Assembly: GCA_025201375.1 (NCBI GenBank) | Contig: JAIWZP010000034.1 | Coordinates: forward strand, 248,001-312,000 | DNA: 64,000 nt | Source of the DNA: Gongronella butleri | Lineage: Eukaryota; Mucoromycota; Mucoromycetes; Mucorales; Cunninghamellaceae | Reading direction: 5' to 3' | In this document: in pieces, positions 2,496-26,966 of the stretch | Position numbering within the stretch: position 1 is the first letter of the stretch | Layout of the letters: every line of letters starts with the position of its first letter | Notes under the pieces: model-generated | Databases searched by the model: none | What the model was told of the DNA's origin: nothing | What the model saw: the letters and a program-made list of their open reading frames with translations, nothing else | Program-made: the position numbers and the translations under genes

Positions 2496-3038
2496 ATGTC
2501 AACTACAACCGCTCATTTGCTTCCCTTTAAGGTGTTCAAGGAAGAAAAAGTGGACACTGACAAATTTCTATCCATCACACACGACAACCAGGCCCGATCT
2601 ACCGTCATAGCAGGCCGCATCCTGGAAGGCATCGAGCTGACGCCATCAGTGCCTGGTAAAAGCGCGACGCGCCTCTTTTTTTTCGCGCGAGGCGGGGCGC
2701 AAGAGGGCTCAATTCGTTTTTCTCCGTTTAATTAGGCTACATTTGGAAACAGAGCATTAATTATGACGCCATGGACGACGCCTATGACTCGGAAAATGAG
2801 GAAGAAAATACACAAACGCCGGCAAAGGAATGGACACGGACAGACACCAAGATTGAAAAGCTGATAGTGTGGAACAAAGACACGGCACCGGCGGCAAACA
2901 ACCCACAGGCCCTTGCTCTGGAGCATTGGGTGAAGATGGCTGATGTTGTAAGCACGATCATTCACAAACTCGGTCCTAGACCCATCTCACTTTTCTTTTT
3001 TGTTTTTATGACAGATCCATGGCGAAATTCCGCTGTAG
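2496..3038 (+). CDS. RNH203: Ribonuclease H2 subunit C (Rnh203-like)
   Basis: Three exons (2496-2655, 2736-2947, 3015-3038) give 131 residues. The N-terminus carries the subunit C signature HLLPFKV, then IAGRILEGIELTPSVPGYIW, matching the 'LLP...F.GR.L.G..v.lP.Gy.g' pattern. After an acidic insert comes the second conserved block, IEKLIVWNKDTAP, and the end ALEHWVKMADVIHGE fits the 'W..lA..iH' C-terminus. This is a structural, non-catalytic subunit of the heterotrimer that removes ribonucleotides from DNA. I chose the ATG at 2496 because the upstream in-frame stretch is a pyrimidine-rich leader. The last exon is only 24 nt. Confidence 0.8.
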
Positions 3039-3604
3039 ATATATTTCTTCCATCGCAAGTCCACATTTCTCATTGAATTAAACATCTCCTCCCATTCGTC
3101 ATTCATACATTTTACAACTTTCAACATAAACTCACGTTTTTTTCGCTAAAAACTTGGCCAGCAGCATACTAAGAAGTCACGTTTGGTGAAATGGTTCCAC
3201 TGTCGATGCGCGACCACTGACCCGGGTTTTCTGACAGATTTTGGATGGCTTTGCTGCGATTGACCACGAGGTATCTTATTATTTTGACATTTTGATGCAT
3301 CGACACTTCAACCTGCTTGAATCGGTGTGCATCAAATTTACAGCAGCTATTTTGGTCTTCTGTCAGTCGCGTGCAGCAAAATAAAAATGGAATTTGATTG
3401 ATGGCTGCCGATTCGTGTATGATTCGTGTAAAATTCTACGCACCTTGACAGAAAGCGTGTCAATTGAGCACTTTTTTTTTTTTGGACCGTGCTGCGCGCG
3501 TCTTGGCGTTTCAACTCCGCTGCGCCGCAATAAAAAAGGAACCAACAAGTGAGGCGACATTTTCTTATTTCTTTTAACGTCTTTTATACAATTTTGCGCC
3601 GGAT
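3039..3604. other. Intergenic, no gene seen
   Basis: AT-rich spacer between the RNase H2C stop and the F-box start. No ORF with convincing composition or motif was found on either strand; the right part is probably the F-box gene promoter/leader. Confidence 0.6.
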
Positions 3605-5509
3605 ATGCTTCCTTCTGAATTGTGGGCGCTTGTATTTAAACGACTGTGGCCCAAGGACTTGCTGGAGTGTGCGCTTGTCAACCGGCAGCTGAATGAGAAT
3701 GCTGCGCTTCCGCTTTACACAGTCGTGCACTTACGGAGCTATGACCAGTGCACTCTTCTCGCGCGCACGCTTGAGACGCGTCCTGAGCTTGGTGAATTGG
3801 TGCGCTACATCTATGCTTATAATGATATGGCACTGACGGGTGTCCTCATGGCGTCCTTGCAGCAATTTACGCCCAATGTCCGCTATTTTGATATGAAACG
3901 GCGGTCCTTTCTAGCGGACTCTGCTCTTTTTCGAGACGGTCCGCTTTGGCCGCAGCTGACACACCTTCCCCATTGGCAGAACGAGCCTTCGGGCGAAGAA
4001 TTGGAACGTCTGCCTCTCACATCGATCCATTGTCGATCATACATGATCTTTTCCTTGGTGCGACCGCTTACGCCCGTGTTTGCCTCGGTGACAAACATGA
4101 TAGTCATGTGGTCCGGCAGGTATGCGGTCGACTGCCTTGTTGGGCTGCTCGATGCGATCCATGAATTGGCTCCAGCTCTAACACATCTCACCTTTGGCCA
4201 AGGCGACAAGTCTTTGACTCACACGCCGTTCAATGAAAATCCACCAATGGGTGACACACTGGCAGCCATTGAGCCCGTCGTGGCGCTGCGGTCGCTTCAC
4301 ATCGATTTTTGCAAGCTGGATCAACCATGGATCAATTATGTTCACAAATTGTATCCGAATCTCACGTCACTCAGCATACGCGTCTTGTTCCATCTGGGCA
4401 CGCCATTCCACGACGAAATTCCGCGCCTGTCATTGCCCGTCGGCGCGCTTGAACACCTGGAAATTGATCTGAGCCGCCTGCGCCAGCCCATGCGATTGGT
4501 TCCTCATCTGCCGGCGCCCATGCTGATTCAATGGTTCCCCGACATTGAGCAATATGTCATTGGCAAAGGGCAAGAGGTGGAAAAGGTGGAAAAGGCAAAA
4601 AAGCGCGTCGTCGGGCCGTCAGACCGCGATTTGCCCCTGAAAAGCCTGAGTTGGAAATTTTATACCAGCGACTTTGCACCGTGGCAGATGGCCAATGTCC
4701 CTGTCCCTCTCTTTGATCAATTGACAGAGATCGAACTCTCGCTTTTGCCGGATGCCAATTCTCTGTGCTGGCTCCGATTGTGCGCGCACGACTATTGTCT
4801 GGACAATCACGCCACGCTGCCGCTGTTGCGCCGTCTTAGCCTGGCCAATTCACAGGTGACCAACGGCTCGTTCCCCATTGACTGGCGCCGGCTGATGCGC
4901 CGTGCGCCCTTGCTCGTGCATCTCGACATCAAAGGCTGGTTCTTGGTTTTTGATGGCGGCGATGGCATTGACTGCGCGCCGACGCGTGATCTGTCCTTGG
5001 CGACACGCTTCCCACGTCTGCAGAGTCTTCAATTTGGCCGCACCACGTTTCTATCACCCGCTGTGTTGCAGGATCTGCTGACATCGTGCCCCAATGCAAA
5101 AGATCTGCTCTTGTATGCCATCAGCCTTTGCATCTCGGACGACACGCTATTGCCCGTCCTCATTGATGCGCCCGATCGTGACTTTGACCGCCTCTGTACG
5201 TCCAACATTATATTCAAGGGAAAAGTGCCGTCCATCGATAACACAACGCATCATGTCAGCTTTCCATTAAATGGCACACCGCTTCGAGTGCCGTCCATTT
5301 CTGTCACGCTTGGCATTCTGAAGCTTACACAACCACTGCCGAGCACGCAAGTTTGTCGCCGCGAGTCCAAAATTTTTGACCGAAGGCAGAGATTGGACAT
5401 AACCAAGGCCACCATTCTTTTACGTTGCAGGCACGTCTACAAGCACGTCAATTATCTTAGTCTTGGAGACGAAAAGTTTAGTTTTGATTATATTCATGTT
5501 GATCATTAA
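3605..5509 (+). CDS. F-box protein with degenerate leucine-rich repeats
   Basis: A single uninterrupted ORF of 634 residues, unusual here because most neighbours have introns. Residues 1-45 form an F-box (LPSELWALVFKRL, then DLLECALVNRQ), the Skp1-binding module of SCF ubiquitin ligases. The rest shows irregular LRR-like units (LTSLSIRV, LEHLEIDLSRL, LPLLRRLSLANSQV, FPRLQSLQFGRTTF), probably the substrate-recognition part. A Lys-rich linker lies near residue 335. The substrate cannot be inferred. Large families of such F-box/LRR genes are common in early-diverging fungi. Confidence 0.75.
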   Translation: MLPSELWALVFKRLWPKDLLECALVNRQLNENAALPLYTVVHLRSYDQCTLLARTLETRPELGELVRYIYAYNDMALTGVLMASLQQFTPNVRYFDMKRRSFLADSALFRDGPLWPQLTHLPHWQNEPSGEELERLPLTSIHCRSYMIFSLVRPLTPVFASVTNMIVMWSGRYAVDCLVGLLDAIHELAPALTHLTFGQGDKSLTHTPFNENPPMGDTLAAIEPVVALRSLHIDFCKLDQPWINYVHKLYPNLTSLSIRVLFHLGTPFHDEIPRLSLPVGALEHLEIDLSRLRQPMRLVPHLPAPMLIQWFPDIEQYVIGKGQEVEKVEKAKKRVVGPSDRDLPLKSLSWKFYTSDFAPWQMANVPVPLFDQLTEIELSLLPDANSLCWLRLCAHDYCLDNHATLPLLRRLSLANSQVTNGSFPIDWRRLMRRAPLLVHLDIKGWFLVFDGGDGIDCAPTRDLSLATRFPRLQSLQFGRTTFLSPAVLQDLLTSCPNAKDLLLYAISLCISDDTLLPVLIDAPDRDFDRLCTSNIIFKGKVPSIDNTTHHVSFPLNGTPLRVPSISVTLGILKLTQPLPSTQVCRRESKIFDRRQRLDITKATILLRCRHVYKHVNYLSLGDEKFSFDYIHVDH

Positions 5510-5936
5510 ATTATCGGCCAAACTCGCCCTCAAAAAAAAAAAAAAGTTGCCACCTGGAACTCGATTTTTTTTATTTTGAGTTTTTGACATTTGTTTCGCA
5601 TTTTTAAGCTGCAATGAAAAGTGCCTCCACTGAGATTCTCATTGTAGTACTGTAGTATACTGTAAGTAGACACCGGGGGGCGAGTTTTCTAATAAAGAAA
5701 CGCCCCTTGATCTCGTATCTCGCTCCGGTCTCGTACCTTTTATTTTTCTGTCTACTGTACATGTCGCGAGCCAGACCTGGTTCTCGATTCTCGTAGATCA
5801 ACGCATCAGCAAGGCCAGCGAAGCGTGTAGCGCGGCGATGGACGCGCTTTTACAGTATTTAAAAAAAGAAAAAAAGAAAAAAAGACTTGAAAGAATCAAA
5901 ATCAAAAAAAGATACAAGACTACGTATTATTACTAG
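5510..5936. other. AT-rich intergenic, left edge of repeat island
   Basis: No gene seen. It contains four TAC(A/T)GTA heptamers (5648, 5658, 5753, 5851) and short CTCG-rich fragments resembling the MITE interior that follows. Confidence 0.55.
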
Positions 5937-6433
5937 TAGGGTTGTCTTTCGAGAGTCTTGCTCGAAATCTCGATTGTCTCGATTGAAATCAATTTGGATC
6001 TCGCTCGAAATCTTGATAAATCTCGAAAAAATATGATATCGAGAGGATCGAGCGAGACAATCGAGAATCTCGATCGCTCGCTCAATTGATCTCGATTGAT
6101 CTCGATTGATCTCGATAGGCAGATATTTATCTTACAGTAATATGTTTTTAGGCTTAGGTTGGCTGTAGTGTTGCTGCAAACTTTGTGCCAGCCACTTTTT
6201 TTACGAGCGTGCAGCAGTGTGGCGCCATGTCATCTTTTTTTCTAAAAAATTTATTGAATTCATATGACAACGTAAGAAATAAAAAAATCATGATGGCTCA
6301 GTGGTATTGGTGATGTGGTTTTGGTATTACAGTATGTGATCCGGGTTTCAATCCTGACGGGTGTATGTAAATTTTTTTGCTATCCCGATTACGTCATCTT
6401 GAGGGCGTCTCGCTCGCTCGATAGACAACCCTA
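5937..6433. mobile_element. hAT-like MITE with CTCGAT repeats, copy 1
   Basis: Non-autonomous element of 497 bp. Its ends are inverted: TAGGGTTGTCTTTCGAG at the left, and the right end read on the other strand is TAGGGTTGTCTATCGAG (16 of 17 identical). Behind the ends lie arrays of CTCGAT/CTCGAAAT units in inverted orientation, typical of subterminal transposase-binding repeats. The centre has a tRNA-like box A/box B pair (separate entry). The ends fit the hAT terminal pattern (T/C)A(G/A)NG. Flanks do not show a clean 8-bp duplication (ATTACTAG versus ATTTAATA), so this copy is probably old. No transposase is encoded. Confidence 0.7.
6294..6354 (+). other. tRNA-like internal Pol III promoter inside MITE copy 1
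   Basis: Box A TGGCTCAGTGG (6294-6304) fits TRGYNNARNGG exactly. Box B GGTTTCAATCC (6344-6354) is close to GGTTCGANTCC. The spacing is that of a tRNA gene, but no acceptor stem closes, so this is a tRNA-derived module and not a tRNA gene. Confidence 0.55.
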
Positions 6434-8215: not shown

Positions 8216-9369
8216 GTCTGCTGTCTACTGTACTAGACGAGCATGCAACCAGCTAACCACTTTTTAAAAATCCAGGAGTCACTCAGGGGTCACACATTTC
8301 AACCTCAGAAAATACCAAATTCGGTAAATTTCGAACTCCGAGTGATCCGTGCATCCTAAACAGGTAACTCCGACGATTTAATATTGGCAAACAAAATGGC
8401 AGATCACCTCAAATTACCGTAATAAGAAGAAAAGTACAGTAGAAAACCCAACCCCCAAAAATGGAGGGTGACGCATGAACGTGCGTTAAACGCCGATCGA
8501 CTGAAAAAAGTGCCTACAGAGTACAGACTGTATTTTGGTGCAATTTTTTTGCAAAAATTTAGGGTTTGGGACTTCCAAACCAAGTTGCGTGGATTGCATG
8601 ATTGTCGTAGGGGGGTAACAGGGGGTCAAAGAGTACAAAGTGATAAAACAGAATCGGGATTCGTGATAGAAACGGGTTGGACTTTATTTCGACTATTGGG
8701 ATGATGCAAGGCTTTTATACTACAGTATTTGAAGCGATAGCCATTTGATACATAAGAAATTACGATTATTGACATACGCGACACGGGAGTGCCTTGCATC
8801 TCAAACCCTTTTTTTTTTGCGCGCACTTGGCTCTCTGTATGTTTTGTCGTGCGTGCCAATGCTCTTCCGTTATCTTGTGTCCATGAGCATCCATTATCTA
8901 TGACGTGTACAGGCTTTATGTGATCCATTCGCACGTCAATTGCTCATGACGTTGATACGCCTCTTTTTCGTGTATCATATCTTTTTTTTGAGAGAGAGTG
9001 AGGCAGTGCGGCACACTCCGCCTCACTTTGGGCTATTCAAGTGCCGCGGCCTGATTCATTGATAACCGGCCATGCACACTTTTTTTTTGAATTTACCGGT
9101 AAATTCCCTTTTTTCTTTTTTTTTTATCATACTGTATCTTATGCTGCCCGCGTTCAGTGTGCCTGACACGCGGTCGCATCTGTATCTCTTTTCGTTCCTT
9201 GATTCCTCGGGGCTGCTTGACCATAAGGCTACTGGGCTGCTTATCCTTTTTTTTATTTAATCGCGCCTTTTGTCCCCGTCTGGCCAATGATTCGCGATGC
9301 CTTTTTTGTACATGTCAATGGCCACATTGACATGCACGTGCACCAGGTCGTGTGTGCCTGGGGAGACGG
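8216..9369. other. Repeat-island spacer without a gene
   Basis: AT-rich, low-complexity sequence. TAC(A/T)GTA occurs at 8226, 8435, 8721 and 9130. Pyrimidine tracts appear around 9070-9130 and 9245-9260. No coding motif was seen in any frame. Confidence 0.5.
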
Positions 9370-14154: not shown

Positions 14155-17100
14155 TCAAGAAAGCAACGAACGCTGTTTGACGGCTAAACTGAGATTAGAT
14201 GCGCGCGAAAGCATGCGTTCTTGTTGATATGATGACAGAGATGAGAGGCTGGATGTCGACATGACGGACATCCGCTTGCGGTCGACGGTGTGAAGACTCA
14301 TGGCCACGGATGCGCGCTTGCCATGCTCCATGGCAGCCGACAGGATGGCGCGATTAGCGCTTGATCGCACGCTGGCCGTTCTTTTTTGTTTTGTTAAAAA
14401 AAAAATGGGAATGAGACACGTTGCAAAAAGAGAAAAAAATAAGCTTACGTGGATGCATTGGCCGACATGATGGATGTCTGTGAAGCATTGTGAGGAGCCG
14501 CAGGGGCATTGGTGGATGGCGCGGAAGGTGAGTGGGAAGACGACCATTTGCCGTCGACATTTGTTCCAGCGTCATGCATGCGAATTGCGTCGATCATGTC
14601 TGCAAAATGGTCGCTCAGGGACAAGAGGGAGATGTCGTTTTGCCCCACGAGCTTGTCGACCTGGGGTTCGATCAATGCAGTGGTGAGATGGCGGATGCGC
14701 TGGCCAAGATCGGTTTGTTCGCGTTTGAGATCCTCAATGGCATCCTGCAAGTTTTCGTGAACGATTTGGAAGCGTTCCAATTCGCGCAAGATCCACTGGT
14801 GGCGGTCGTGATCCTCATTGGTGGGCAACGTGGCGTCGTCATCATCATCAACATTGATTGCCGCGCGGTGCGGGTCATTGTCAGATGCAGCCAGGACCTG
14901 CCCGTGTTGCACCTTTGTGTCCAAGCCGGCAGACACTTCATCGACGACTTCCCACACCTTGACGACCTCTTCCTTGCGGTGGCGGATGATCATCTCGACT
15001 TCCGTTTTAAAGACATAAACTTGGCGCGCGACCTCGGCGGCCTCGTCATAGAGAATGGTCATTTGGCTGTGTGCTTCCTGGACCTCCAGGCTTGCCTGGC
15101 CAAGGGCTGTTTGCACGTCCACCAAGACCTGGCGCGCACGATTGATATGATGTTTGGCGAGCACCTTGAGGCAGTACAAGCTGGTATCCATGCGGGTCAA
15201 AAGGCACTGTAGGACCATTGGGTATTGACACATATGTTTCAAACGCGCCACATCGGCAGCATGGTTGTCTTTGCTGTTTCCTGACTTGAAAAGCAGCGCC
15301 AAATCCTTTTCGACATCGTCGACGACCAAGCCATCGGCGACAGACGCAGGCACATGCATAACGAGCGACGCGTCCTCTTGCCAATCCTTTTCCACGTGGA
15401 TATTTGGTCCGTCGACCGTCTCGAGACGCTCGAGCAAGCCTTGTAGCAGCAGCGGGGGACGTACCTGACGCAATGCATGCTTGGTCGCGTCCAATTGATC
15501 CTGTACGCGGTCGTGCTCGGTTTTTAGCAAGGAAAGACGCGCATCCACTTGCTTTTGGCGTTCGAATAGGGCCCTGGTGCAGTGCATGACGGTTTCAAGC
15601 TCCTCTTGGACAATCGACGACGAACGGCCGCCCAATGCGCGCTTGCTTTGATCGAGCTCCTTTTCCAGCGCGAGACACGCGTCGTACATTCGTTTTTTGC
15701 CGCCGAGAATTTGCTTGGTGTGGATCTGCGCGGCATTCATGTCGTGCTGGATTTCGCTCAAATTGGCGCTTAGAATCTCGAATTGCAGCTCCAACTCGTT
15801 TAGGGACTGTGCATCCATTGTAGACGGCGCGACTAGCGCACTTGAATAAAGTGTGGCTGTCAGTCGCTGCTGTTGCCAATAGGTGGTTGACAATGTGGAT
15901 GTGACAGTGGTATCTGTGGACGACGAGACCGATGACACCTGTGAGGAGCCATTGGAAATGGGTGTCGCGGCGGTATTGGTTGCGTCGGCCGAGGAAGACG
16001 ATGACGACGACGACGATGGATGTGGCGACAAGGTTGTTTTGTTGCCATTGGCTCCATTCTCGCGCTTCATCGTGTCCCGGACGAGACGCCATTTTTTTTC
16101 AAGAGCCGCCAAGTCGTCATTGTCGGTTTTTGCTTCGGGCGATTGCAGCAATTGTGTGATCACTTGTTCGAGATCATTCAAAAGGCGACACCAATCCTCG
16201 CGCAGGCGAAGGGTGGGGTCCGTGGATGGCACGGTGCTGAGGATGATGAGCGATTGAGTGAGATTGATGGCACAAAGCTTGAGATACGCGTCAGGGAGCG
16301 GAGTTGTCGCGGGTTCGCGCTTGAGGTATTGCATGACAATGCGACGCAATGCCTCGGCATGCATGGTGAGCTCGTCTTGCTCAATCTCCAGTTGGCAAAA
16401 GCGCGAATCAATGCGTTCAAACACGTCCAAGAGCTTGTTGACCTTGTCCTGTTGCAGCTCTAGCAATTCACAATCTGCTTGGTGGATTTGCTCAACTTGC
16501 TCCAATTCCTCGCGATAGTACAGCATCACTTTTTCTGCGCGCTCATCGGTCTGGTCAAACATATCATGGGCCTCGCGCAGCTCGTGTCTCAATCTGGCAA
16601 TCTTGCGGTCCAATTGAGCAATAGACAAGACGGGCTGATCACCGCTGGAAGAGCCAGATGACGACGACGGCGGGGCATTGGCAGCGTCCCCTTGCCAGGA
16701 GTGCAAGATGGTCTCGGTAATGATGGCCAGTGATTTTTCAATCGAGTCTGTAAAGGTCGTTTGGTACGTGAAGAATGTCTTGAGAATCAGCTCAAAATCC
16801 GAGTCGATTTGGTCCAACACGTCGCCCTTTTTCTTCATTTCTTTGCTCTTGTTGGCCATGACCTCGGAGATGGACGTCGGCAAAATGACCGATTGCGTGG
16901 CAGTTGACTCGCGGCATGACCATTTCGCATACGTGTCGTTTTGCGAGATGGACACGGACCGCGACAGCGATGCTTGTTGGTGATAGTCGCTGGCAGTGTC
17001 AAATGGCTTGATGTTATTGCCACTGATGTGCGATGCTAAGGATTTGTTGCGATTCACGGATTTGCGCTCTTGCTCCAAGCCTAAACCAAGAAAAAAAAAA

Positions 17101-19195
17101 AGAGAGAATGAGCCACCGTAATGTTGCTCCATTTTTTTGTTGTTGTTACCAAGCAAGCACTTTCGAATTTCATCCGTTTTGCAAATATCGAGGGGAGTTT
17201 GCTGCTTTTTGTTCTTTAGGTACAGATCGGCATTGCCTTCAATGACCAAAACTTCAAGCACCTCGCGCACAGCGCCGAATTCGGCGGCGAAATGCAAGGG
17301 CGTATTGCCTGTGGGGTCTGCAATGTTGACGAGCGCACCAAAGCGAATCAGCAAGGACGCGCAAAGCGCAAGATGGCCAGGGACGGTGGGTGCAGTCATG
17401 ATGGACTTTGTGAGAGGATCATGCATGACATCGACCATGGATGCGCGAGCCGCGGTGCCGTCGGAAGCATTGGAGCGCGAGGACACAGTGGAGAGGCGAT
17501 TGTGATAGCCTGGGGACGTTGGTGTCACTGGAGACATTGCTGCGGGTGGCGATGTGGCTGTGGGCGAAGACGCATTCGACGTGGCCGCTGGCGATGCGGA
17601 TGACGAGGCAGCGGTATTGTCAGGGACGACAGCAGACGCGTTGGAATTGGCACGTAGACGCGTCGGGGTTGTTTTGTTGCTCTTTTGGATCCCCCATGTC
17701 TTGCCCTCATTGTCGGTGCCAATGCGCGCGAGATGGTGCAATGCTGTGCGCCCATAGTAAGTCTGTGCGTTGACGTCAGCACCAGCTTGATAGAGCATGG
17801 CAATCGTATCGAGCGAGGGAAGTGGTTTAGCGCGCATTGCATGATGAACGCACGTCAGACCCGTCTTTGTGTCATGATAATTGACGAGCAGCGTCCCAGA
17901 CGGAACTTGATCTTGGCATTGAAGCGGCGGTGACCAAAGAAGAAGCGATTGCAGCGACGAGTGATCGTGGGCCTTGATGGCATGCAAAAACGCCGATTGC
18001 ACGAGCTGCACAATAGGTCCTGCCGTGGGATCCCCCAAATCGAGGTCATTCAAGGCCGCAAACTCGACGTGCGACAGGGATGTCTTGTATTGCGGGAGGT
18101 TGGCAATCATCGTTGACAATTTGGCATAATTGGATGGATAGCGTGCCACGGGGTTGCTCGGGACGTGATAAGCCTGTTTTTTTTTTTTCACAGAAAAATA
18201 AGGAGGGTGGAATTGGGGGGTTAGAGATTGAAAACAGAAAACATTGGCCCGCTTACAGTGACATCAGGGCGCTTTCTTCGAAGAGCATGCTCACACATTT
18301 GCACAATCTTTGGATTTCGCTCAGCATACTGGATGGCAGACCAGCCGTGACTGTCCGTCAGGTCAGGCGAAGCACCAAAGTTCAACAAAGCTTGTACAAT
18401 GCTCAAATTGCCATCGCGTGCTACCATTGGGTCATAAAATAAGAAAACAAAAAGAAAAAAAAAAGGAGGAGCGGGAGTCAGCGCGAGGTCTAGCTGAGGA
18501 GGGATGGGGAAGAGGCACTTTACCTGCATACATGAGAGCCGTGGCATTCTTGCTGTCAGTGCCATCGACGTCCACACGGCCATCCTCAAGCAGCAATTGT
18601 ATGATATCGGTCTTTCCGAGGTAGCTTGCGAGGCAAAGGGGTGTAATGCCTTTGATCTCGTACTGCGGGGCGTTGAGCGTGGCAACAAAAATGTTGGGAT
18701 GTTGCAAAAGAATGTTTTTCATGATGTGCAAGTGGCTCTTGTGGCTCTGCGAGATGAATGGCAGATTGGACGCGTTGATGTTGGCAGCATCCAGATCCAA
18801 CCCATAGATGGCGCAAATCAATGCCGTCCTGCACCATGGAGAGAGAAAAAGAGACAGAGAGCCTATGAGCAATCTCGTTGTCACCTTCCCTTCCCCCCCT
18901 TTTTTTTTTTATCCTTTTACCTTCCCAAACCATCTTTCATATTGATGTCGGCGCCGGCACTGAGCAGCAATCCGACCATTTCAACGTGGCCGCCCAAGAC
19001 AGCAATATTCAGCGGGCGCGCATAATAGTCCTGGTGTGTAAACAAGTCTGGGTTGGCGATGGCGTTGGAGGGAATCACGGGCGAGTAACTGTTTTTGGTG
19101 TTCCAAGGCACAGGGCTGTTCACGTCCACCCCAGACTGCAACAGCTGCCGCGTCCGCTCCAAGTCGTTCTGTACTATCGACAACAGAAAGTCCAT
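14155..19195 (-). CDS. Large ankyrin-repeat and coiled-coil protein
   Basis: Six exons (18921-19195, 18524-18828, 18257-18420, 17150-18173, 14449-17080, 14155-14380) give 1541 residues. The N-terminal third holds ankyrin repeats (RPLNIAVLGGHVEMVGLLLS, ITPLCLASYLGKTDIIQLLL, GNTPLHFAAEFGAVREVLEV), broken by a Ser/Ala/Thr/Pro-rich linker. After a second Ser-rich region, about 800 residues are mostly amphipathic helix and coiled coil (for example KIARLRHELREAHDMFDQTD). A short acidic run (DDDDDA) and a Ser-rich basic tail follow. There is no membrane segment and no PH or ORD domain, so it is not Osh1-like. Function not recognised; an adaptor or cytoskeletal scaffold is possible. Confidence 0.75.
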
Positions 19196-19430: not shown

Positions 19431-21640
19431 TTATGATTGACGTGCCATGGCAATCTTGCGCAGAGACACAAAATCAGCGAGTAGGGCTGTTTCTTCCTCA
19501 ATGACGCCCATGATGCTTGACCGCGTCTTGCCAACACGATGAAGAAGAAGATCAACATGCGCAGCGATCTCTGCATGAGCGTCGTCAGCGCCAAGCACGC
19601 CGAGCACAAGGCACACGCGCTGGAGCACAAACAGCCCCGCGTCCAGGCGCCGCAAATAAAATTCTTCTGCCAAGTCCGCGTCCACGTCGTCGCCATCCGC
19701 CTCCATTTCGCGTTCAATGGCCTGGCACACCGCGTCATCGCGTTCTTGGTATTGCTCCTTAAGCTCTACGAGGCGGTCAACCTTTTCGTGGTCGTTCTCC
19801 GTGAATTTGTTCAGCAGGCGCTGGCGCTCCACCGCAAATTCAGGGATCGTCAGATGACGGAGTAGCGACACCAAGATGCACATCACGTGCTCCTCGTCTT
19901 CTGCCTCACTGAACGACTTGTGCATCTTTTTCAACTTTTTGTTGCCCTTGCCCATGAAGAGTGCAAACAATGGCTTGAGACCGGCCGCCTGTACAAGACG
20001 CACAGCGCTTGCTTTGCCACTTTCTCCAGTCATGGCATAATTCAGCACCTTGACCGCCTTGACACGCGCCAGTGTCTTTTCTCTGGTGTAAAAAAAAAAA
20101 AAAAAATAGAGGGGGAGACAAACGTGAGCCATCAGCTGAAAAATTGAACAAAGCAGATCTTACTTTAGCATGATCAGCATCAATTCGACGCCTTCACCTT
20201 GGAAAAAGAGTTCCTTGGCCTTGTCTTCATTCAGCAGGAGCGTCAGAGCATTGAAAAGATTTTCAACCATCTCCTCTTCATCCTCCAGCTCCGGGTCCCG
20301 ACGCTTGTAAGCCTAAAAACCCCCGTGTAAGTCGTGAATTTTACTTTCTTTTTGGTCTCTCTTACAGCCACCACACGCAAACAAATATCCACAGCGTCCA
20401 GTTCGCAAAACTTGATGCGCACATCTAAAAAAGCAAATAGACGCGCGTTAATGCGTCAAAAAGTCGCGTGGAAAACGTGTAAACGCTTACCGTGATCGTT
20501 TTGCAACAAGATGGCCAGGATCTCGCTGGCATAACCTCTATTTGAGTCGAACTGCTTGGCTTGGATGCGCTTCAAAATCCATTGTGGTAGTTTGGTATCG
20601 ATGGTGATGCGACGCGCAAGCTCAGGGTCCAGAGACAAGACATTTTCGAAGATGCTGAGAATCTTGAAAATGCCTTGTCGATCGGATTCTTCGTTCTCAT
20701 TCAGACGCTCCAGATTCTGCACCAACAGAGGCAATAATTCGTGCTCGAGCTACCAAAAAAAAAAAACGAAAACGTGAGGCAAAAACCACATTGATCCTCC
20801 CTTGCCCTATTTTTCTTCTTTACCAGTGAGTCAAGAAGCACCTTGACACCCTGTGCAGCATCTTCTGAGCCATCTTGAACATCCATTGCCACAACATCCT
20901 CATCGAGCCATTCATTGATCAGGTCGACGGTGTCGATCATAATGTCGGAGTTCTCGTGTGCGAGCAGCGACATGAGCGACGCGACTGTGTTGAGATTCAC
21001 CAATTCGGGATACAATTGTGGCGCCTGGGTGAGCACCAGCAAGCCCTTGATTTCTTCGTCCAAGTCGGCCTCAGATTCCATGAATTTCGTCGGCTCGGAG
21101 CTGTAGCGCATGCGCAGCTCTTGATTTTTGTTGATCGCCTTTTCAAACTTGAGCAGCATGCGTTTGACCGAGCTGGCCGTCAGCGTGTCCTGAGAAGAAA
21201 AAATGGATGGGCTTGAGTTCACGCAGTTTAGGGCATGCCATTGGCTTTTATATACCTCTGCCACCTCTTCTGTATCGAGCTCATCCACCATATCCAACAG
21301 CCTGCTCTGTTCATCGGTCAAGCCGCCGCCAAAGAAGCGGCCCTCGGCGTCGTCAGCGACATCCAGCTCGTCGGCTCCCATGTAATCTGCAGCATCAAAT
21401 CCATGCGCGTTATCGTCGTCTTCTGCATCTTGGTCGATCGCGCGACGCTTGCCCTTGTGATCTGACGCGTCGTTTTGGTACTTTTCAAGAAATGCAACCT
21501 CGGGCGTGTCCGCCATTTTACGCTTGTTGCGCCCGCTTGGGATAGCAGGGATCTGTTTAAAACAAAGGTACGTATGAGAACCTCACCAAAATGCTTCTGA
21601 GCGCGTCTCTTTCTACCTTGAACATATCATCAATATTCAT
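19431..21640 (-). CDS. CTNNBL1: Beta-catenin-like protein 1 (CTNNBL1), spliceosome-associated
   Basis: Seven exons (21617-21640, 21256-21552, 20824-21189, 20491-20749, 20366-20424, 20164-20312, 19431-20082) give 601 residues. The order of conserved blocks is that of CTNNBL1: an acidic N-terminus, SSVKRMLLKFEKAINKNQEL, KFMESEADLDEEI, LLVQNLERLNE, EILAILLQNDHDV, LLNKFTENDHEKVDRL, and EEFYLRRLDAGLFVLQRVC. In animals and yeasts this ARM-like protein associates with the Prp19/CDC5L complex in the nucleus. The first exon is only eight codons; that ATG is chosen because the second exon opens in frame with a basic stretch (SGRNKRK) resembling the family's nuclear localisation signal. Confidence 0.9.
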
Positions 21641-21703
21641 TTTTTAATAAGCTGTCGAAAGTAAATGAGAAGGAAGCGAAAGAAAAAAAAAACATGTCAC
21701 CCA

Positions 21704-21947
21704 TCATTTTTTTGAGGGCCAGCGGACTTTATTTTGCTGGCTCTGCTGGAGCCTCCTTTGCAACTCCGTGCGTGCAAGGAACAAGAGCGCTTGTAGATCC
21801 ACTGCAAAAAAACGCAAAAAGTTAGCGACCAATCATATGTTTACAAAACAGGCGCTAAAGGTTCCCACTTTCCCGACTAGGCAATGCTCTTTTTTTTTTT
21901 TTTTTTTTTCTTTTTGTCAACTTACTGGACGACCTGGCGGAAGCCAT
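21704..21947 (-). CDS. Possible 39-residue spliced small protein
   Basis: Two exons (21926-21947, 21704-21801) separated by an intron with a strong donor (CCA/GTAAGT) and acceptor (TTTTTTGCAG) join to exactly 40 codons including stop. The product is one predicted amphipathic helix (DLQALLFLARTELQRRLQQ) with a basic end. It starts 10 bp after the Fanzor stop codon and ends before CTNNBL1 starts, on the same strand. I recognise no family. It may be a real microprotein, an alternative 3' end of the Fanzor transcript, or chance. Confidence 0.35.
21718..21741 (-). terminator. Hairpin with AATAAA in its loop
   Basis: On the minus strand GCCAGC and GCTGGC pair around a 12-nt loop that contains AATAAA (21733-21728). 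A plausible polyadenylation signal for the minus-strand transcript ending here (Fanzor or the small ORF); alternatively a structural piece of a Fanzor guide RNA. Confidence 0.3.
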
Positions 21948-21957
21948 GAAAACGTGG

Positions 21958-24900
21958 CTACTTTTGTTGTAGCCAGTAAGGTGGATGCTTTGAGTCGGTG
22001 TCGACAAATGCCTTTGTGAAGACGTGTGGGCGCGACTCGGGGTTGTTTTTGGCATCCAAAGCCGGGACACCGCGGCCGGCAATGCGCATGAGGGCGATTG
22101 AACGGATGTTGCGCGCAGCGTTCACATCCCGCTGCCAATTGCGTGCGCACCATTCACAGGTAAGCACACTGTGCAGCTTGAATGTGTCCATGCCACCATC
22201 GCGTTTTGTCATGTTTATCACGGAACGGCGACCGCACGACGAACAGGTCTTGCTGGTGTAGGGCTCGGGCACCTGGACGACCATCAATCGACATGCGCGC
22301 TGGGCGAGCGCCAATCCACGGCGGAGAAGAGCAACACGGCTGCTCGGCTTGCCGCGCCAATTGAGCCGCTTGAGCTGCGCGTCGCCAATGCAGATGAGAG
22401 GGCAGGCGGCAAAATCTCGACGATTGGGCTCCTTGCGCCACCTGCATGTCAAAAAAAAAAAGATCAATTCAATGTCTCTCGTACCAACCCGCTTGCTCGT
22501 GGCTCTCTTACTTCAAATCTCCTTGTGTAGTGCCTGGCACCTGCTCGCTATGTGTCAAAAAAGCAAAAAAAGAAAAAAAAAAGAAATAAAGGACAAAAAG
22601 GAAAAAAAAAAGACAAAGAAAATGAGTCAATGGCAAGATTTTCGGGGCAGCTGGCTCGCTCGTGCTCTCGTCCTTACCTTGGACCATCTTGTTGGTCTGT
22701 AGGCCGCGGCCCCGTGGTGTCTTTGGGCTTGTATTTTTTTCCACCGTGGCAAAGAATTGCCACCATTTCTTGGAGTGCGCGCTGACGTCCTTGAAAATTG
22801 AGAAATCTTAGTCCTTGATGGGCTTGTCCATAGAACGCAAGGAGCCGTGGCAGGGCAACCAACACACTTCGGACGTGCATGGCCATTCTCGCTGGGATGG
22901 CGGTTTTTGCGCTTGCCAAATTCGACTCGAGCTGTGCGATCGTCATCTCTTCTTGGTCTGCAGCATTCGCCTTGAGCGCCTTGAGCTTTTGGTTGGTCCG
23001 CGTGATGCCAGCGACATGGAAGAACTCTTGAGTCGAAAAGCTTCTAGCTTGATGTGGTTGCGCCATCTCCGTCGTGCGGCGGGACCGATTGGATGGCAAA
23101 GAGGCAGATCTCGTCCTTGTCGCTTGCGGATCACGCTCACGGCCACGCGTGTCTGGTACAACAGACGATGAACGCACTCTGATGCCAGCGGAGCGGGGAA
23201 GCCGCGGCAATCCTGGGCGTGTGGCACCATAAATGCCGTCTTGGTGGCTGGATCCGTCCACCGCTACAAAGACCTCATTGATACCAGGGTCAACGCCCCA
23301 AACGTGGCACCGCTTGAGATCCTCGGGATGGATATCGTCCAATGTAAGCTCGGGGAAGGCCTTGCTGATGACTGGAATGCGATAATACACCGATGTCGCC
23401 ATGCCATCCGTGGCGAGTGCATTGTCAAAGATAGCTGTCTTGGGCCTGAGGGAACAAAAAAATTGTCAGTCGCTTTTTTTTTTTATGTTGTTGTCCATCT
23501 TTTACTTTTGAATTTTCGTCCAATTGAACAGTCGCTCGAATACAGGATGGGTGGAGCCATCGCCTGGAGCTGTTTCATTGCCTTGTTTGTACCGGGTGAG
23601 GCCCACAAATGTCAAAAAACGCAAAAGAGTTCGATGCGACAAATGGATGTACCGCCATCGGAACGAGGGAGCTGGGATGATGGCAAAGAGGCGGATGGCA
23701 GGTCGGGCAATGTAGATTTCAGGCTTGAAGGTCTTGTTTTTGATTTTTTGCTTGGTTTCGGTGACAATGGCGTGTCGACCAATTGGTTTTGGTATGGGAG
23801 ACGTGTGATGTCCAGCGCGTCGTCGTTGCCATTGATGATCTTTGTAATGACGCGTGTGAGGCGCGATCGGCGGCGGAAGTTGAGATTGATCCAGGCAGGC
23901 ACCTTTTTTTCGAGCTGATGCTTGGTCCAAACGTACGTGGCCTTGGTGGCGACCTCTGCGGGTTTGGCCGCATCCTCGTCATTCCAAGCCTCCATCTGCT
24001 TGAGGGCATCAAACAGGATTTCCATGAAAAAGTGCGGGTATCGTGTCAATGTGGCGGTGGTGACGGCCAAACGGTCGGCGACTTGGAGACCTGCCATGGC
24101 TGTGGTGCCGATGGTGCTCGTGGACATGGCGTCCGATGTATGCATCATGGAAACGTCCTCGTCGTCGTCGTCGTCGTCGTCGTCGTCCAAAGGCTCGATT
24201 TCCATTGGATGGTCCCCGTCCTCGTTGTCATGACGAGTCAATGCGGTGTCATTGGCGGCCATGATGCTCGCCACTTGGGCGTCTGCGGCGGCGGCGTCGG
24301 CTTGGGCAGCCTCGGCGGCGGCGTTCTTGGCTGTGGACAATTCGATTGCTGTGGCGTGCACTTGCACGGCTTGCTGGGCAAGCAAATGGGACGCTTCTGC
24401 GTTACGCTTTGCATTTTCAACGGTGGCTATAAGAATTGCCGAGTAGTCCAATGCGCCACGATACGCTTGGTCTGCTTGCCGAAAGGACTCTTGCGCGATG
24501 GCGGCCATGGCGATGGGTGCTTGTTCCAAGGCGGCACGTGCAGCACTTGCAGCCTCGGCCAAAGGTGGGATCACTGCCGAATGATGAACATTTGCGGCTT
24601 GCGCACATGCATTGTACGCCAAGTGCGCGTTCCGTGCGCCGACATGCATCGTCGCGGCCACGTTGCCGGCAAATTCCGTCTCTTGTGCTTGAGCCATCGC
24701 GGCGACTTGTGCCTCGGCAGCGGCAGCGTGCAATTCGGCCGCTCGATCGCGTGCGGATTGCAATGCGGCGGCTTGGAGGGCAGCAGCTTCCGCAATGGCA
24801 GCTTCTTGGGCGGCAATGACAGCTTCTTGGGTGGCTTGCAATGCTGCTTCTTGGGCGGCAATGGCAGCTTCTCGGGCCGCAGCAGCAGCAGCTTGTGCGC

Positions 24901-26459
24901 CGGCAGATGACTCGGCGGCGACCATCTCTGGCGCAGGCGACATCTGGGGAGCGGATGAGCCGAAGGTCAAAGCGGCAATAATCGCATTGCGGTTGGCCAG
25001 GGACATTTCGCGCGCCCGATCATTGGCTTCTTGCCGCTTGCGCGAGGCTTCGGCAATCTGAGCCTTTTCTTCGACGACAAAGTCATAGACGCGGGCCCAT
25101 TGGGACTCTGCGTGCCGGGCCAAGTCATCGGCGTCATCCTTCAGCTTCTCCTTTTGCGCCGCCCTCAACGTTTTGTAGTCAGGGAGCTCAGGCGGAAACA
25201 TCGCGTCCTTGGCGGCTTTGTCATAAGCATACATGGCGTACGCGCGGCAATGATGCGGCTTGAGGTCCTAAACAAAAGAAAAAAAAAAAGAAAAAACAAA
25301 AATCAATGAGAAGGGGCCCACCATGAACATTTTTCTTCCCCTTTTTTTTTGCTTACTGGGTGGTCAATGGCAAACTTGGCTGCAAGGTAACGCATATACA
25401 ACACCTCAAAATTCTCCACGACCATGTTCTTCATCATGACGGCCAATTCTTTCGCCGTGTATCCCGTCACATCTGTAAACGCAGTGGCCTTGCCATTGAC
25501 ACCACGGGGCTTGGAGATGCTGATGGTCGGATGGTCGCTTTTGAAGCGGGTAAAGGCCTCTAGGAAGCTGGTGCGAGTCTCGTTGTCAGCAAACAGTGCT
25601 TTGTTGGTCACAGAGTCGCCAAGAAGCAATTGGAACACGGCTTGGAAAAATTCTTGCGAAAAGAGCGCACGTGGGACGTGGATACCCGTGTCAAGGAGGT
25701 CAATGACATATTGGCGGGTAAATAGCATGGCGTGGATGGTGAGATGGCGATTGAACTTGACAATGTCGTGGATGCCGTCCATGAACGCGTTCTTGTCGTC
25801 GTCCGGGATGTCGTCGCGCAGGAGCTTACGCAATCCATGCTTGATGGTCGTTCGACGCGTCTTACCAAGTCGCTCCTTTGTTTTCACCGACTTGCGCTTG
25901 ATGTAATCCGGGCAGATCTGATTCGTCGGTCTTGAGTGGGTATAAGCTAATTCGAGGCGCGCCTTGGCCTCGGCGCGTAGGCGCTCCACCTCGGGATCGT
26001 CCTGAGCAGCAACGGGGTCCGCACGTCCCTCGATCAGCGCAGTCGCCTCGCCATCCAGCCGGTCAGCCGCGCTCTTGCATCGAGGGCAAGGATTCTTCAC
26101 AGCCGCAGAGCTTGCCTTGGTCGCCGCCTGGAAATCGTCTTTTGCAGTCATCTTGGCCTTCTTCTCGTCGCTCTTTTGCTTTCTCTTGGTTGTCATGCGA
26201 CTTTTGCCCTTTTTTGAGCGCTTGTCTATGATCATAAAAAAAAAAGATAACAAATGAGAAGGAGTGATCAAGTGGAAATGAGCCCTTTCACGCTTTGTTT
26301 ACCATTTTTCTCGCTATCGCCTTGTCCACCGGTCGTCTCGCTTTGCTGATCGACGCGATCCGACGTCGCGGCAGACTCCCCTCCTTCGCCTTGCTCTTGT
26401 TCTTCGGCAGCACGTGCCTTGGCATCAAGCTTCTGCTTCACCAAAGAAAAATAGGGCAT
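21958..26459 (-). CDS. Fanzor (eukaryotic TnpB-like) RNA-guided nuclease, probable single frameshift
   Basis: Six exons (26303-26459, 25357-26225, 23506-25267, 22678-23445, 22512-22547, 21958-22441), about 1358 residues. C-terminal signatures are unmistakable: RuvC-I CHVWGVDPGINEVFVAVDG; the linker motif FSTQEFFHVAGIT; the RuvC-II region PLICIGDAQLK; a zinc ribbon TSKTCSSCG with C-x2-C partner CEWC; and RuvC-III RDVNAARNI. The canonical RuvC-II Glu is replaced by Gly/Asp, but a Glu about 40 residues later (VPEPYTSKTC) sits where fungal Fanzors carry their alternative Glu. The N-terminus has a CPRC motif and the FNRHLTIHAMLFTRQYVI helix. Residues about 400-690 are an Ala-rich insert plus an acidic run, making it longer than usual. 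In exon 3 the frame must shift by one base near the A6 run at 23744-23749. Flanks show no clear transposon ends. Confidence 0.9.
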
Positions 26460-26966
26460 GTTGGACCGTGTGGGAAAAGAAAGAAAGAGGAAAGAAGAGC
26501 AAAGGAACACATATCCCCGCTCGTTCAACTTTTATGATCCCTAATTTTTTCTGTCTCCCTGCCCATTTTTTTCTTTTTTTTTTTTTTAGTCCTCATACCC
26601 ATGACTCTCACCCATACCAAGGATAATTTTCTACCCTCATGGCCTTCTTGTTGTCTATTATAGGAGAGCAGTGGATAAACAAAACAACTCAGAGGATACC
26701 CCTTACTGCGCCACACCTGTTGAAACGGAGAAGCAACCGAGAAGACGCGTCGATTTCTTTTGTCACAATAGCAATCAATTCTCCTTTGACCCAATTAAGG
26801 CAATCGCTGAAGATGTTTTTTTTTGAAGTGATCGCGTGTTAGATTTTCGGGCCGAAAAAGGAAATTCCATGCGCACACACACGGTCGGGTCTTTTTTTTC
26901 TGCTTTTTTACTTTCTTTTTTTTTCTTTTCTCTCTCTCGTTCTCTTTCTTTCTTTTGGCGTATGCT
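26460..26966. other. Divergent intergenic region between Fanzor and USP gene
   Basis: Contains T-rich tracts and an unassigned 89-codon minus-strand frame (26,525-26,794) without motif. The stretch just before 26,967 is C/T-rich, as in other leaders in this window. Probably the shared promoter region; no terminal inverted repeat was seen. Confidence 0.45.

Follow-up and report, generated by a model that had tools for sequence, protein, structure and literature searches.

A probable Fanzor1 gene with a broken reading frame, likely carried by a CACTA-like transposon in Gongronella butleri

This analysis concerns a gene of the Fanzor family of RNA-guided nucleases in a 64,000-nucleotide stretch of the fungus Gongronella butleri (NCBI GenBank assembly GCA_025201375.1, contig JAIWZP010000034.1, positions 248,001 to 312,000 of the forward strand), referred to here as the window and numbered from its first letter. 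Comparison with related copies in the same genome assembly (33.0 Mb, 110 contigs) indicates that the locus is very probably one copy of a DNA transposon that carries a Fanzor1 and has CACTA (En/Spm)-like ends, and that the protein of this copy has recently been lost.

The mobile element and its broken Fanzor gene

The whole element covers 5,031 bp of the window (21800..26830, minus strand, as for all features of the element given below). Its limits were taken from the ends of identity to the nearest paralog, L027 on contig C55, which is 90 % identical over 5.1 kb with similarity ending at both sides, and its tips were placed by terminal repeats and a short duplication. The left terminal inverted repeat (CACTTCAAAAAAA, 26818..26830) matches the right one (21800..21812, reverse complement CACTGCAAAAAAA) at 12 of 13 positions, and copies of a GAT target-site duplication adjoin them at 26831..26833 on the left and 21797..21799 on the right. 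The original prediction, made from the window sequence, had described a locus with no obvious transposon ends; the sharp ends, inverted repeats and duplication brought out by the paralog comparison contradict this. Its remark that no transposase is co-encoded holds, as the Fanzor gene takes up the element and no transposase open reading frame (ORF) was seen within it.

Exon matches to PF07282 numbered 20 in the genome, 19 of them over the cut-off, and paralog loci were defined as 10 kb around each of the other 19 matches (6 kb for one at a contig end). Ends could be set by a paralog in nine copies, six of which were testable for a duplication. CAC...GTG was present at both tips in these six copies, with inverted repeats agreeing at 10 to 13 of 13 bases. 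The 3-bp duplication was exact in four of the six testable copies (GAT in the window, CAA in L023, ATA in L010 and AGA in L011) and agreed in two bases out of three in L009 and L026 (CAG/CAA). When 289 shifts of at most 8 bases were compared, four matches were reached by no other placement free of a shift into the element; those with equal or higher counts lie inside the repeats.

The Fanzor gene runs on the minus strand from an ATG at window position 26459 to a stop at 21958, exactly the span first assigned to it, and comprises six exons and five introns, all five with GT-AG borders. The five predicted spliceosomal introns are found at the same places in L027, L009, L026 and L023; L015 and L016 have four introns and lack the 36-nt mini-exon. 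Spliceosomal introns in a fungal genome bear out the predicted eukaryotic origin, and bacterial contamination was rejected on account of the introns. The ATG exon (26303..26459) is followed by exon 2 (25357..26225), which would encode the N-terminal REC/WED part, and by exon 3 (23506..25267), in which the frame is broken. Exon 4 (22678..23445) carries the RuvC-I motif GVDPG (23283..23297), identical in intact paralogs, and the helical part after it; exon 5 is the 36-nt mini-exon (22512..22547), and exon 6 (21958..22441) holds the RuvC-II region, zinc ribbon, RuvC-III and stop. The RuvC-II glutamate of the window copy is relocated: an alternative catalytic Glu is followed by six residues and the CSSC of the zinc ribbon (Glu and first CxxC at about 22228..22266), and the presumed old position, judged by eye, is now Gly in 'ICIGD'. 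The ribbon is of the C4 type and is followed by the RD of RuvC-III (RDVNAARNI, 22105..22131). The terminal exon matched PF07282 (Cas12f1-like_TNB) at 3.3e-12, above the curated cut-off, and the splice sites and catalytic residues of the window copy are intact.

The break in exon 3 was missed by the original prediction. The exon is out of frame past 23772..23778, before RuvC-I, where it has 22 bp fewer than L027. All six close paralogs (L027, L009, L026, L023, L015 and L016) are open across all exons, their frames spanning 1,353 to 1,385 residues when counted to where the alignment ends, and intact proteins of the family have 1,353 to about 1,390 residues. Seven comparisons gave ratios of nonsynonymous to synonymous substitution rates (dN/dS) in the range 0.20-0.37. 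Between subfamilies, L027 against L026 or L023 came to 0.20; comparisons inside the L009 group gave 0.31-0.35, and when the window copy was set against L027 its two halves had values of 0.365 and 0.242. Because dN/dS is low both between subfamilies (0.20) and for the pieces of the window copy (0.24-0.37), the coding sequence looks to have been constrained through most of its history and the break in the window copy looks recent.

Exon 3 also contains an alanine-rich insert of ~250 residues (24140..24910; 36 % Ala in the window copy) that ends in a run of Asp. It is present in all seven close copies, that is the window copy and its six paralogs, whereas L021, L022 and L025, whose exon 3 is shorter, lack it; our guess would be a long helical or coiled-coil spacer. 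Reading through the intron 3 donor meets an immediate in-frame TAA in all seven of these copies (window 23500-23506). Retention of intron 3 would give a protein of ~960 residues without RuvC, and two deposited gene models show exactly that. The deposited models for four loci are fragments (two stop at exon 3 with 956 and 960 residues, and those of L027 and L015 have 242 and 196), none of which covers both halves. A protein search for N-terminal relatives, limited to 7,994 candidates, returned only the two known fragments among the matches listed.

Fanzor1 placement and type of carrier

A profile comparison was made with a profile of six subfamilies of this genome. The best solved-structure match was Guillardia theta Fanzor1 (E 1.2e-8), and the Fanzor of Spizellomyces punctatus was found at 0.0016, with several TnpB, TranC and Cas12f chains between the two. 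Together with the PF07282 match and the presence of RuvC-I, the zinc ribbon and RuvC-III, this supports the predicted membership of the Fanzor/TnpB clan and, by profile, a probable place specifically in Fanzor1. A carrier that is a eukaryotic transposon other than IS607, here multicopy and with repeats and a duplication, is as expected of Fanzor1. Yoon et al. 2023 (PMC10711439) describe the DPG motif and relocated Glu as characteristic of Fanzors and of the bacterial proteins most closely related to them, and put Fanzor1 sizes at up to ~800 residues.

The element resembles SpuFz1/Spu-1, a Fanzor1 system of S. punctatus, in its Fanzor1 motifs, in being multicopy with terminal inverted repeats and a short duplication, and in the existence of copies without a working protein gene. 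According to its published description, Spu-1 is ~2.1 kb long with one ORF of 633 residues, 30-33-bp repeats and a TA duplication, whereas the Gongronella element is 5.0 kb long, has five introns, encodes a protein of ~1,350-1,390 residues when intact, and is bounded by CACTA-like repeats of ~13 bp with a duplication of 3 bp. ROr-4, PBl-3, MCi-4 (MuDR-like), MCi-2 and MCi-5 of Mucoromycota are likewise Fanzor1 elements of related fungi with no matching transposase of their own, but differ, according to Bao and Jurka 2013, in the length of their duplications (9, 11-12 or 6 bp) and in that their inverted repeats are different or missing. The match to G. theta Fanzor1 (structure 9cer) covers the RuvC-I region and zinc ribbon; identity is low, and the protein is much smaller (its size taken from a chain with a fusion tag) and would lack the alanine-rich insert. 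In the database searched, the closest homologs from other genomes, whether full or partial, were P0004 of Hesseltinella vesiculosa and P0007 of Absidia cylindrospora, both with PF07282; they differ in being 624 and 755 residues long as deposited and share 32-36 % identity over part of the query.

CACTA (En/Spm) transposons have tips resembling those of this element. Right tips are CACTG or CACTA, and left tips are CACTT, CACAG or CACTG, so the CACTA form is only approximate on the left. Judged from its sequence, the carrier is probably a CACTA (En/Spm)-like element of the non-autonomous type. That the gene is instead cargo of another superfamily, either MuDR-like, as for the Fanzor1s of Rhizopus, Phycomyces and Mucor with their 9-bp duplications, or of the Harbinger type with 3-bp duplications, seems rather unlikely. 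Such a carrier would accord with excerpts of Bao and Jurka, in which Fanzor1s of related fungi are placed in MuDR or left unclassified, and the CACTA assignment made here depends on short A-rich repeats. However, right-side tips are of the CACTG or CACTA form and no match of 4 or 5 bp was found at the tips, by which a MuDR-type 9-bp duplication was ruled out. The target preference of Harbinger elements is TAA-like, and the triplets GAT, CAA, ATA and AGA do not follow it. A literature search found no paper joining Fanzor with CACTA or with Mucoromycota; one listing was returned for Fanzor with EnSpm.

The CACTA transposase family PF02992 has nine matches in the genome. At one of these loci, L050 (C53:90500-99500), a near-perfect long palindrome with CACTGATACAAAAC arms ~100 bp apart lies at oriented positions 8780-8940, downstream of the Transposase_21 gene.

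The right end and the presumed guide

Published accounts of Fanzor1 report that the inverted repeat and duplication lie within the guide-RNA scaffold and that ~15 nt of flank form the guide. By analogy with these guide RNAs, the presumed guide of the window copy would be the first 15 nt past the duplication (21782..21796). A putative intron-like terminal unit (GTAAGT ... GCTAAC ... TTTTTTTGCAG, 21802..21925) overlaps the presumed scaffold. Even subfamilies that are hard to align have in common, 3' of the stop, a GTAAG-type donor, a GGGGAGCATAGCA-like block, a ATTGGNNNCTNAC-like block, a T-run and AG/TG at the tip.

Thirteen right ends were scored with weight matrices built from 14 internal introns of three copies; those of L012, L013, L017-L020 and L024, with the tip missing or not identified, were left unscored. 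A complete intron-like unit ending two bases from the tip was present in 12 of the 13, L014 having TG for AG. Since the splice site would lie two bases from the tip, inside the expected scaffold, splicing would cut the scaffold from the guide. It is conceivable, if unlikely, that the tip is inverted repeat, end of the guide-RNA scaffold and spliceosomal 3' splice site at once, that the spliceosome balances enzyme against guide and that broken copies donate guides. Unspliced or half-spliced RNA would then keep the scaffold on the guide and become guide RNA, and splicing would remove the scaffold two bases before the tip to give a clean nuclease mRNA joined to host DNA. The T-rich tip of En/Spm, ending in AG/TG, can act as a 3' splice site, and Menssen et al. 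are said to have described En/Spm (CACTA) termini as splice sites in 1990. There, an inserted element behaves as an intron of the host gene, whereas here the site would fall at the junction of scaffold and guide.

We lean slightly towards a simpler account, in which the right end is only an inverted repeat whose poly-T and AG mirror the A-rich left repeat and nothing is spliced. The repeat by itself yields the T-run, CAG and TG; L014 is without the AG; six of 12 donors and six of 12 acceptors score under the weakest of the 14 internal sites; and the donor of L010 and L011 overlaps, and may belong to, another, differently aligned motif. This account fits less well with the GTAAG/GTAAAC donor found 61-126 nt upstream in all 13 scored ends (AG absent in one), with donors at the 96.5-99.8th percentile of all GT in the loci and acceptors at the 96.0-99.6th of all AG, and with unit lengths (61-126 nt) that stay within the range of internal introns (60-130 nt), exceptions being one nt or less. 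A branch-point-like CTNAY or TCACAT ahead of the T-run also argues for splicing.

Origin of the locus, its surroundings and significance

As a copy of a Fanzor1-carrying, CACTA-like transposon, the 5-kb unit very probably moved whole into the narrow space that separates the divergently oriented CTNNBL1 and universal stress protein genes, leaving a 3-bp duplication. Because no transposase lies inside the element, this movement would need one supplied in trans. Intact members, judged by their sequence, encode a RuvC nuclease of ~1,350-1,390 residues with the Fanzor catalytic triad. By analogy with known Fanzors, the right end may be transcribed as a scaffold running into the flank, so that every insertion would specify a guide against the corresponding empty site; cleavage of that site would favour retention or copying of the element. 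The window copy appears to have lost its protein recently, when a change in length shifted the frame. The sequence of its right end is intact, and it could still supply a guide to the paralogous proteins. In S. punctatus, 'ghost' elements have been proposed as guide donors for intact copies.

Two other origins were weighed, the first of which, domestication, was one of two guesses in the original prediction. A single-copy gene that the host retains for some cellular role would be in keeping with the purifying selection on both pieces of the window copy (dN/dS 0.242 and 0.365), with its intact splice sites and catalytic residues and with its position between two host genes. It is nonetheless highly improbable because the frame is broken here while all six close paralogs are open, and because the locus is one of several copies of a mobile element, having inverted repeats, a target duplication and a counterpart elsewhere that is 90 % identical; domestication was rejected on the broken frame and the multicopy state. 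The other guess, stranded cargo, came nearer, except that the locus is very probably a complete insertion with a duplicated target that has since lost its protein. There is also little to recommend a stranded segmental duplication, in which the 5-kb unit was copied by host recombination and not by transposition. It would suit the lack of a transposase in the element or linked to its ends, but independent copies cease to be identical at the same tips, which bear the repeats, the flanks are unrelated and the short duplications match at exactly those tips.

A number of results weigh against the transposon and Fanzor1 interpretation. The duplication was testable in only six of the nine copies with paralog-defined ends; the right tip of L027 is short of its last two bases (TG), L015 and L016 lack a CAC-type left tip, and for L021, L022, L025 and L014 no left tip with a matching duplication was found. 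The one PF02992 element read, at L050, offered no convincing tip pair and none shared with the Fanzor elements. The guided_TnpB model, whose presence in all six subfamily representatives speaks for the interpretation, scored under the NCBIfam curated cut-offs there, as it did for the terminal exon of the window copy (3.2e-8). RNAalifold gave no consensus structure for the 13 right ends, and an Rfam search of the window gave no match.

The neighbouring genes are those originally predicted, CTNNBL1 (PF08216, two exons matching at 7.1e-46 and 5.7e-48) and a universal stress protein gene (PF00582, 3e-17, on manually joined exon pieces). The element lies ~280 bp from the CTNNBL1 start (21517-21799) and ~135 bp from the stress-protein start (26834-26966), and the place of insertion must have been a short divergent promoter of these two genes. 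Elsewhere in the window, a large ankyrin-repeat protein gene (14445-18263, minus strand) runs through simple repeats, and scans of the window for Rfam families and tRNA gave no match.

Among the related copies, L009, L026 and L023 are 94.6-94.8 % alike over 5.1 kb, and L015 and L016 are 97 % alike over 4.9 kb. A DNA search with the window right end returned itself and L027 as the only real matches, five others being short and of low complexity; the left end found itself, L027 and an orphan, L044 on C24, and matched the L009 group weakly. A pattern search for right ends was unproductive. The orphan left end (C24:432068-432453) is 84 % identical to L027 over 0.5 kb and is a solo end or relic, with no Fanzor coding match past where exon 1 begins. 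A right-end motif (GGGAGCATAG...CATTGGCCACT) at G000:C55:48405-48445 (minus strand), with no PF07282 match listed nearby, is a possible 'ghost' element. L018 (C2) and L020 (C32), a 93 % identical pair, represent a second TnpB-like lineage (oriented 2600-6000) with an ORF of ~725-750 residues that has VDCGRRD instead of DPG at RuvC-I and stops within the zinc-ribbon match.

What is unusual here is the protein size, the ~250-residue alanine-rich insert and the CACTA-type ends. Fanzor1s are known from several transposon types, and a CACTA-like carrier with proteins of ~1,350-1,390 residues would widen that range. Because the deposited models are fragmentary, surveys of protein databases can miss such enzymes. 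Splicing at the tip, if true, would make it possible to test directly how one transcript gives rise to both a eukaryotic guide RNA and its mRNA.

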